A DNA stretch of 64,000 bases from Burkholderia singularis (GTDB taxonomy: Bacteria; Pseudomonadota; Gammaproteobacteria; Burkholderiales; Burkholderiaceae): positions 1 through 64,000 of the forward strand of contig NZ_FXAN01000038.1 of NCBI RefSeq assembly GCF_900176645.1, given 5' to 3'. The notes beneath the pieces were generated by a model, which did no database searches, was not told the DNA's origin, and worked only from the letters and a program-made list of their open reading frames with translations. This document shows positions 32,822 through 34,318 of this stretch, in pieces; position 1 is the stretch's first letter, and every line of letters starts with the position of its first letter. Position numbers and translations under genes: made by a program.

Positions 32822-33012
32822 CGGCAACGTGCGCGGCGGTGCACGCGCGTCACGCCTTTGTCATCCGGCAAATCCGGTCGCGCGGCGCCGAAGCGCGCAA
32901 CGGGCCGGCAGCGGCACGCACGCCAGGCGCTCAGCCGAGCATTGCCGCCGCCTTTTTCCGTTATACTTGCGCGACTTGTCGTCGCCGCGCTTCTTGCAGC
33001 GACGCCCGGAAA

Positions 33013-33102
33013 GCGCGCCGATTTGCTGACTCGATTGCGGGCGCGCGAACCGGCAGAGGCTTTGCCTCCCGCCAGTTCACTATAAATGCGGCTAAAGAGG
33101 TC
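33013..33102 (+). promoter_or_regulatory. SAM-II-like riboswitch in the metX leader
   Basis: P1 is GCGCGCC (33013-33019) with GGCGCGC (33040-33046), 7 bp perfect. The 20-base loop begins GATTTG and ends ATTGCG, matching the SAM-II L1 pattern GAUUU...UUGC. An inserted hairpin follows: GAAC/GTTC at 33047-33050/33075-33078 outside, GGC/GCC inside, and GAGGC-TTT-GCCTC-type tip. After it comes ATAAATGCGGCTAAAGAGG (33082-33100), almost the same as the L3/P2 strand of the crystallised SAM-II RNA as I recall it. Pseudoknot pairs: GACTC (33028-33032) with GAGGTC (33097-33102, one bulged G) and GCG (33037-33039) with TGC (33087-33089). The position before metX, a classic SAM-II target, supports the call. 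Hand fold only. Confidence 0.8.
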
Positions 33103-33152
33103 GTCAGCCGCGCTCCCTAGCCTCTCGCGCATGCCGGACACCGTTTAGCCGC
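33088..33152 (+). promoter_or_regulatory. Alternative pairings after the metX SAM-II core
   Basis: GCGGCTAAA (33088-33096), which contains the SAM-II core GCTAAA, can instead pair with AGCCGC (33106-33111) as a short hairpin or with TTTAGCCGC (33144-33152) over nine perfect bases. The second partner ends 20 bases before the metX ATG. Mutually exclusive folds that use the ligand-binding strand are what an expression platform needs. The direction of control is not evident from sequence. Confidence 0.5.
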
Positions 33153-33172
33153 CCAGTCATCAGGCGCAAAGA

Positions 33173-34318
33173 ATGGAATCGATCGGCATCGTCACGCCAC
33201 AAACCCTGCATTTCGCCGAACCGCTGCGCTTGCAAAGCGGCAACGTGCTCGGCAACTATCAGCTCGTGGTCGAAACCTACGGCACGCTCAATGCCGCACG
33301 CTCGAACGCGGTGCTCGTCTGCCATGCGCTCAACGCGTCGCACCATGTCGCGGGCGCCTACGCGGACGATCCGCGCAACATCGGCTGGTGGGACAACATG
33401 GTCGGGCCGGGCAAGCCGCTCGACACGAACCGCTTCTTCGTGATCGGCGTGAACAATCTCGGCTCGTGCTTCGGCTCCACTGGCCCGATGAGCATCGATC
33501 CGGCAACGGGCGCGCCATACGGCGCGCGCTTTCCGGTCGTCACGGTCGAGGACTGGGTGCATGCGCAAGCGCGCGTCGCCGATGCGTTCGGCATCGAACG
33601 CTTCGCCGCGGTGATGGGCGGCAGCCTCGGCGGCATGCAGGCGCTCGCGTGGAGCCTGCTGTATCCGGAGCGCGTCGCGCACTGCATCGATATCGCGTCG
33701 ACGCCGAAGCTGTCCGCGCAGAACATCGCGTTCAACGAAGTCGCGCGCTCGTCGATCCTGTCGGACCCCGATTTCCACGGCGGCGATTACTACGCGCACG
33801 GCGTGAAGCCGAAGCGCGGCCTGCGCGTCGCGCGGATGATCGGCCACATCACCTATCTGTCCGACGACGACATGGCCGAAAAATTCGGCCGCGCGCTGCG
33901 CCGCGCGGACGGCGCGCTCGATGCGTACAACTTCAATTTCGACGTCGAGTTCGAGGTGGAATCGTACCTGCGCTATCAGGGCGACAAATTCGCCGACTAC
34001 TTCGATGCAAATACGTATCTGCTGATCACGCGCGCGCTCGATTACTTCGATCCGGCCAAGGCGTTCGGCGGCGATCTGACTGCGGCGCTCGCACATACGA
34101 CGGCGAAATATCTCGTCGTCAGCTTCACGACCGACTGGCGCTTCGCACCCGAGCGCTCGCGCGAAATCGTCAAGGCGCTGCTCGACAACCGCCGGCAGGT
34201 GTCCTACGCGGAGATCGACGCGCCGCACGGTCACGACGCGTTCCTGCTCGACGACGCGCGCTATCACAACCTGATGCGCGCCTATTACGAACGCATTGCC
34301 GACGAGGTGGGCGCATGA
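33173..34318 (+). CDS. metX: Homoserine O-acyltransferase MetX
   Basis: An alpha/beta-hydrolase enzyme activating homoserine for methionine synthesis. 381 residues. Nucleophile Ser151 is in [10 protein letters not shown], with the Asp in TTDWRFAP (about 320) and His in APHGHDAFL (about 353). Early motifs are CHALNASHH and [12 protein letters not shown]. Family members use acetyl- or succinyl-CoA; betaproteobacterial MetX is often a succinyltransferase, which sequence reading alone cannot decide. It overlaps metW by ATGA, the usual metXW pair, and lies behind a SAM-II-like leader. Confidence 0.96.

Follow-up and report, generated by a model that had tools for sequence, protein, structure and literature searches.

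We consider it very probable that the 5′ leader of metX in the window, the 64,000-nucleotide stretch of Burkholderia singularis DNA analyzed here, comprises a SAM-II riboswitch aptamer with an added hairpin, P3, and likely that SAM blocks translation of metX through a remote platform at the ribosome-binding site. Judged by sequence comparison, positions 33013-33102 are homologous to accepted SAM-II members, in agreement with what a first-pass annotation of this DNA had observed. The architecture it described can be read directly in the sequence (Table 1): a 7-bp P1, of which 6 bp are conserved, a 20-nt L1 (33020-33039) with GATTTG first and ATTGCG last, a 32-nt hairpin, and the conserved L3/P2 strand, ATAAATGCGGCTAAAGAGG. 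The ligand-site letters GAUUU, UUGC, and GCUAAA are present, as are those that known structures show in contact with SAM, and the element ends 70 nt upstream of the metX start, an ATG at 33173.

Table 1 Positions in the window of the metX leader elements and of metX, with the basis for each.
Feature	Positions	Strand	Basis
Likely −10 box of the metX promoter, TATACT	32962..32967	+	Motif match only
P1 5′ strand	33013..33019	+	Pairs with 33040-33046; inner pairs near-invariant, partly by search construction
GATTTG at the start of L1, third strand of the SAM-binding triplex	33020..33025	+	Letters equal the RF00521 consensus
P2a 5′ strand (GACT)	33028..33031	+	With 33099-33102; compensatory changes at 33030:33100 and 33029:33101
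P2 5′ strand (TTGCG)	33035..33039	+	33039:33089 is G-C in 68/69 and A-U in 1/69
P1 3′ strand	33040..33046	+	As for the P1 5′ strand
Inserted P3-like hairpin between P1 and the P2 3′ strand	33047..33078	+	z −4.7; double changes in basal pairs
Joining A's, P2 3′ strand (33089, 33091, 33092, 33094, 33095), and SAM-contact nucleotides, ATAAATGCGGCTAAAGAGG	33082..33100	+	R1 match, E 0.0032
P2a 3′ strand (GGTC)	33099..33102	+	Pairing counts over 69 leaders
Anti-aptamer strand TTTAGCCGC	33144..33152	+	Exact complement of core 33088-33096; p 0.002 vs dinucleotide shuffles
Ribosome-site hairpin	33148..33167	+	Covers the likely AGGCGC (33162-33167); 33148-33149 and 33151-33153 pair with 33163-33167; local fold
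metX, homoserine O-acyltransferase, probably succinyl type	33173..34318	+	NCBIfam NF047916

The search with the Rfam SAM-II model that had been proposed as a check gave no match on the element at the gathering score of RF00521 (SAM_alpha), and Rfam at gathering thresholds returned only a tRNA over the 64 kb. On 32950-33180, RF00521 scored 13.6 bits (E 0.83) against a gathering threshold of 36 bits and aligned the P1/L1 part only, probably mainly because the hairpin is inserted; the insert is not the sole reason for low scores, since four of 15 hairpin-free relatives also fall below threshold. Genome-wide, RF00521 gave six sub-threshold matches of similar strength (best E 2.4) with the window element third, and weak matches also occurred in all 14 control genomes, so this search carries no information either way. 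None of RF00521, RF01726, and RF01826 reaches its threshold in the window's genome, the weak partial match of RF00521 falling on the element. The threshold was likewise missed by all 26 hairpin-bearing sequences tried (the window, five loci, and another 20 selected for L3 inserts that form a hairpin), which would favor an RNA other than SAM-II that serves a different ligand or a protein, with the 'metXZ' element of 2014 as a class of its own. We regard this as very unlikely, given that hairpin-free orthologues at the same place do pass RF00521 (11 of the 15 among 20 leaders examined by cmscan, all before metX, up to 52.5 bits), that a model made from them finds the window, and that the SAM-contacting letters are in place.

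This model, R1, was built from the 11 passing hairpin-free metX leaders and holds no hairpin-bearing sequence; a second, R2, was built from 22 hairpin-bearing leaders, six of them from 160 genomes of the order, and the E-values of both rest on a shortened calibration. R1 matched the P1/L1 half of the window element at 35.5 bits (E 1.3e-8), with the remainder of the alignment running into the hairpin. A separate match, at 17 bits (E 0.0032), covered the 3′ strand. The two halves lie in order and are the two best of 11 R1 matches up to E 10 in the 64 kb. Over the whole genome (21 rows up to E 10), the top two places went to the window element and a site before metZ. All 53 sources, preselected as holding the element, were matched by R1 at E 0.1 or better. 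Together with the compensatory changes described below, the R1 match supports the annotation's interpretation that the metX leader is homologous to SAM-II and carries an inserted hairpin. A second DNA match in the genome (L002) appeared by eye to be thiolase coding sequence and was set aside as a chance match.

For comparison, metX loci were gathered from genomes of the class and order and from 80 named records, and leaders were recognized by a pattern consisting of the third-strand letters, TTGC, CTAAA, and at least five of six P1 pairs. Of 139 loci (L004-L142), 73 showed the element ahead of metX by this pattern. All 73 are among the 112 loci that come from the order or the named betaproteobacterial records, and the 27 from the rest of the class gave none. 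Ten of the 39 misses among the 112 were named Polynucleobacter; the scan assumes that metX starts at locus position 1501 and missed at least L049, a locus cut by a contig end, where an RF00521 match is present (G366). Removing redundancy left 69 of the 73 leaders, 46 with a long, hairpin-bearing L3 and 23 without. The core letters are fixed by the pattern, so their invariance among the 69 is not evidence.

Covariation among these relatives, another of the proposed checks, yielded compensatory changes in the sixth pair of P1, in P2a, in one P2 pair, and in the hairpin. The SAM-II pair numbering that we used is partly supported by PMC6061858 and PMC5352136 (here and below, PMC identifiers refer to the accessible portions of the papers). 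The sixth P1 pair was formed in 62 of 69 leaders (C-G 46, A-U 7, G-C 7), and the seventh (33013:33046) in only 20 of 69, so the conserved P1 spans 6 bp. P2a paired in 68 of 69 at 33030:33100 (C-G 41, U-A 18, U-G 9), in 58 of 69 at 33029:33101 (A-U 42, C-G 8, U-A 4, U-G 4), in 66 of 69 at 33031:33099, and in 46 of 67 at 33028:33102; covariation over the 69 leaders thus upholds the annotated pseudoknot 33028-33032/33097-33102 only for 33028-33031 with 33099-33102. For the second annotated pseudoknot, 33037-33039 with 33087-33089, pairing is possible in the window but not conserved: facing the invariant C at 33038, 43 of 69 leaders have G at 33088. We rejected it in favor of the conserved register 33039:33089, 33038:33091, and 33037:33092. 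Each of these pairs forms in 69 of 69 leaders, the last two being largely fixed by the search pattern and the first not. Pair 33039:33089 seems to be the extra SAM-II pair that Barrick and Breaker predicted from covariation (PMC2258182).

We also aligned 22 of the 46 hairpin-bearing leaders with MAFFT and scored 20 named pairs, pseudoknots included. Pair cells were formed in 92.5% of cases against 83.8% in shuffles, double-change cells numbered 34 against 10.3, and covariation was 0.262 against 0.112; sliding the partners by 1-3 columns brought pairing down to 38-46%. P1 and an H-type P2/P2a pseudoknot with covariation, the hallmarks of the class, are therefore both found here.

The inserted hairpin itself folds with −16.9 kcal/mol in the window (z −4.7). 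Across 44 distinct inserts, folds were more stable than those of shuffles (mean z −3.5; z < −1 in 42 of 44) and in all but one began with the base immediately following the 7-nt P1 strand, and all four basal pairs showed double changes in the 22-leader alignment. The distance from the sixth P1 pair to GCTAAA is 45 nt in the window versus 11 to 14 in hairpin-free relatives. The short L3 without P3 that typifies SAM-II is thus not what the window carries, and for this reason we call the element a variant of SAM-II. On a tree of 69 MetX rows the hairpin requires at least four changes, three of them forced by well-supported branches, from which it appears to have been gained or lost repeatedly.

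With SAM-II (RF00521) the element shares P1, the GAUUUG third strand, UUGC(A/G), the GCUAAA-AGG strand, the P2/P2a pseudoknot, and the place before metX; it differs in the 32-nt hairpin that separates P1 from the P2 3′ strand, in scoring only 13.6 bits, and, in Burkholderia-type leaders, in a probable remote ribosome-site platform. With SAM-V (RF01826) it shares a hairpin P3 directly after P1, followed by A's and then the P2 3′ strand (PMC6061858), and by that same account P3 does lie between P1 and the A-minor strand here. The accessible text of PMC6061858 describes near-identical SAM binding in SAM-V and SAM-II and gives the absence of P3 in SAM-II as a difference between them. However, the conserved P1 has 6 bp (7 in the window) against 4 in SAM-V, P2a has 4 bp in the window against 2, the core letters follow SAM-II, and RF01826 gave no match up to E 10 in the window's genome.

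The first-pass annotation had allowed that long-loop variants might already be described. A long-loop family sharing the SAM-II core does exist (RF01726), reported from Bacteroidetes and marine samples (Weinberg 2010, PMC2864571), but its consensus, as seen on a below-threshold match, has P1 interrupted by an internal loop and an L3 that is simply A-rich, with no hairpin at this place, and the model found nothing in the window's genome up to E 10. The association of SAM-II with alphaproteobacteria needs correcting, as members from beta- and gammaproteobacteria have already been published (PMC2258182, PMC2704228). Our searches of open-licence papers gave no report of a hairpin-bearing SAM-II, and the accessible portions of PMC11508383, PMC8386462, PMC12452182, and PMC13273304 do not mention one.

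An RNA element termed metXZ (Leyn et al. 2014, PMC4239095) shares with ours its genes, its taxa (Burkholderia in 8/8 genomes), and a pseudoknot of conserved regions. In the available text its authors present it as novel and place SAM_alpha only in Rhizobiales and Rhodobacterales. It is probably the RNA seen here, not recognized at the time as SAM-II, an identity that we infer from its published description. The helix 33025-33030/33103-33108 (GCTGAC/GTCAGC), perfect in the window and mismatched by eye in some relatives (L067, L086), is possibly their second conformation.

The hairpin-bearing form was found in Burkholderiaceae, Oxalobacteraceae, and elsewhere. In 160 genomes of the order, RF00521 matched 75 at E 0.01, 28 of them over threshold, and none of the five of the window's family, while R2 matched 105 of the same genomes, hairpin-free copies included. 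R1 matched 65 of 80 genomes of the window's family; all six of its genus, its own included, gave two or three rows each, sometimes two halves of one site. Among 398 genomes of the phylum, R2 matched 50 at E 0.001, and among 299, RF01726 matched one at E 0.001 and none over its family threshold. We inspected 26 loci by eye (22 from the R2 phylum search and four from the R1 family search), of which L210, L211, L213, and L216, from one family of another order in the same class, were hairpin-bearing. In these four, the gene that follows the hairpin-bearing SAM-II and a terminator-like hairpin encodes a MetN-like methionine transporter. The MetN assignment was checked for L210 and L195 only, with N-terminal fragments, and L211, L213, and L216 were named by eye.

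We next consider how the aptamer may be coupled to metX. Downstream of it, in Burkholderia-type leaders (Burkholderia, Paraburkholderia, Caballeronia, and Trinickia), UUUAGCCGC is complementary to the aptamer core at p ≤ 0.05 in 26 of 27 leaders, two of which (L034 and L068) are the same sequence; outside this group p 0.05 was reached in only 5 of 46. In local folds of 26 leaders, the CCGCC adjoining this strand pairs with a GGCGG ahead of the start codon in 25, the window's included, L071 folding otherwise. In all 26 the ribosome site was predicted to open less once the aptamer was locked (median openness 0.055 to 0.002), a drop partly built into the constraint, as locking blocks the core by construction, and the site was nearly closed in both states in 11 of 26 (unlocked openness ≤ 0.02). 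On these models the evidence for the platform is weaker than that for the aptamer.

The window's ribosome-site hairpin, at −4.8 kcal/mol, is the weakest of the 26, as might be expected of a degenerate remnant that has lost its function. We find such a loss hardly credible, since the core letters are unchanged and compensatory change keeps the helices over many genera.

Output in Burkholderia and near genera is likely translational, with UUUAGCCGCC predicted to pair with either the core, GCGGCUAAA, or the ribosome site. In the mechanism we propose, plentiful SAM would favor the SAM-II pseudoknot, formed by P1, P2 (33035-33039/33089-33095), P2a, and the GATTT third strand, which would lock the core (33088-33096). 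The strand UUUAGCCGCC (33144-33153) would then be free to pair with the ribosome-binding site (33163-33167), and with that site paired metX would go untranslated, making SAM the presumed ligand of an OFF switch. When SAM is scarce, the core would pair with UUUAGCCGC and the ribosome site would be freed. P3 would lie beyond P1, as in SAM-V, and be tolerated by the pocket.

The same SAM-II aptamer could instead act on transcription, with SAM favoring intrinsic or Rho-dependent termination ahead of metX, as in relatives. A hairpin followed by a T-run lies downstream in 31 of 69 leaders (4 of 69 in a control with one shuffle each), hairpin-bearing Cupriavidus and Ralstonia leaders among them, the metZ copy in the same genome has a terminator-like hairpin by eye, and the accessible text of Leyn et al. 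reports terminators consistently downstream of the metXZ element (PMC4239095). However, the same scan found a terminator in none of the 26 Burkholderia-type leaders, the window's included, and in 31 of the 43 others, which sets the former apart from the published element; we judge transcriptional control of metX unlikely here. A third arrangement was seen in six leaders (L039, L044, L125, L132, L136, L139), where the ribosome site lies inside P2a, right before the ATG; they form one clade of the MetX tree, Alcaligenaceae-like with Lautropia. Four more of the ten leaders flagged by the direct ribosome-site pattern (L035, L088, L091, L129) were set aside, a terminator or remote hairpin being present. 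As independent support for the proposed switch, according to the accessible text of PMC8814607, the B. thailandensis metX 5′UTR has been used as a regulatory leader repressed at 0.05 mM methionine, its regulation being 'confirmed (unpublished data)'.

MetX passes the O-succinyltransferase model NF047916 (693 bits, cut-off 560) and also the broader O-acetyltransferase model NF001209 (585.5, cut-off 331), and passing the former is consistent with the MetZ of this genome, an O-succinylhomoserine sulfhydrylase. Between purF and metZ, a gene of the same pathway, lies a second SAM-II-like element (L150 1501-1569, minus strand, contig C83 of the same genome; R1 27.6 bits, E 2.2e-4). Its L3 is shorter and forms a hairpin of no more than 3 bp, and a strong terminator-like hairpin follows the element. 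The genome thus holds two copies, compared with one per genome in the accessible text of PMC4239095. The Burkholderia sRNA model Bp2_287 (RF02424) scores 161.6 bits at L150 1426-1602 on the plus strand, opposite the metZ leader, so the strand modelled for this 'sRNA' is antisense to that leader. From its position, RF02424 seems to model a SAM-II riboswitch and its terminator on the wrong strand, or else to be an RNA antisense to them; the authors of Bp2_287 had already suggested a cis element for methionine genes (PMC3521395).

More tentatively, the P3-bearing form may bridge SAM-II and SAM-V. On this reading, the position after P1 would be a docking site at which hairpins arose more than once, in Burkholderiaceae, Oxalobacteraceae, other Burkholderiales families, and, before metN, a family of another order; P3 would be a functional module for tuning folding or for sensing a second input; and the same aptamer would drive three output devices within one order. 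If the bridge holds, SAM-II and SAM-V would be one superfamily divided by search models. By the main reading alone, the metXZ element, so far unexplained, gains a likely ligand and structure, and a sizeable branch of the class, in which a SAM-V-like P3 is placed on a SAM-II core, escapes Rfam's SAM-II model. The leaders also offer a natural series for testing the wiring of one small pseudoknot, with no insert, an L3 hairpin, or an L1 insert, and with direct, terminator, or remote ribosome-site outputs.

Besides the L3 hairpin, a second insertion site was observed just after GATTTG, where L1 grows from about 20 to 31-37 nt upstream of metX in L101, L105, L106, L111, L112, L040, and L137 (Collimonas, Herbaspirillum, and others). 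Three loci of another class of the phylum (L197, L202, L206) carry, after the R2 match and at most 200 nt further downstream, an apparent second SAM-II (GGGATTTGAGG..CAGCTTGCA..CTAAAG); a terminator-like hairpin separates the two, which by their sequence may be tandem SAM-II.

Upstream of P1, TATACT occurs in 22 of the 26 Burkholderia-type leaders, and one of 17 −10-like hexamers in 58 of the 69 (motif matches, counted without a shuffle control). The −10-like box often stands just 10-16 nt 5′ of the P1 flank (upstream of metX in L090, L095, L097, L098, L104, L138, and others), and at that distance the transcript would start almost at P1.
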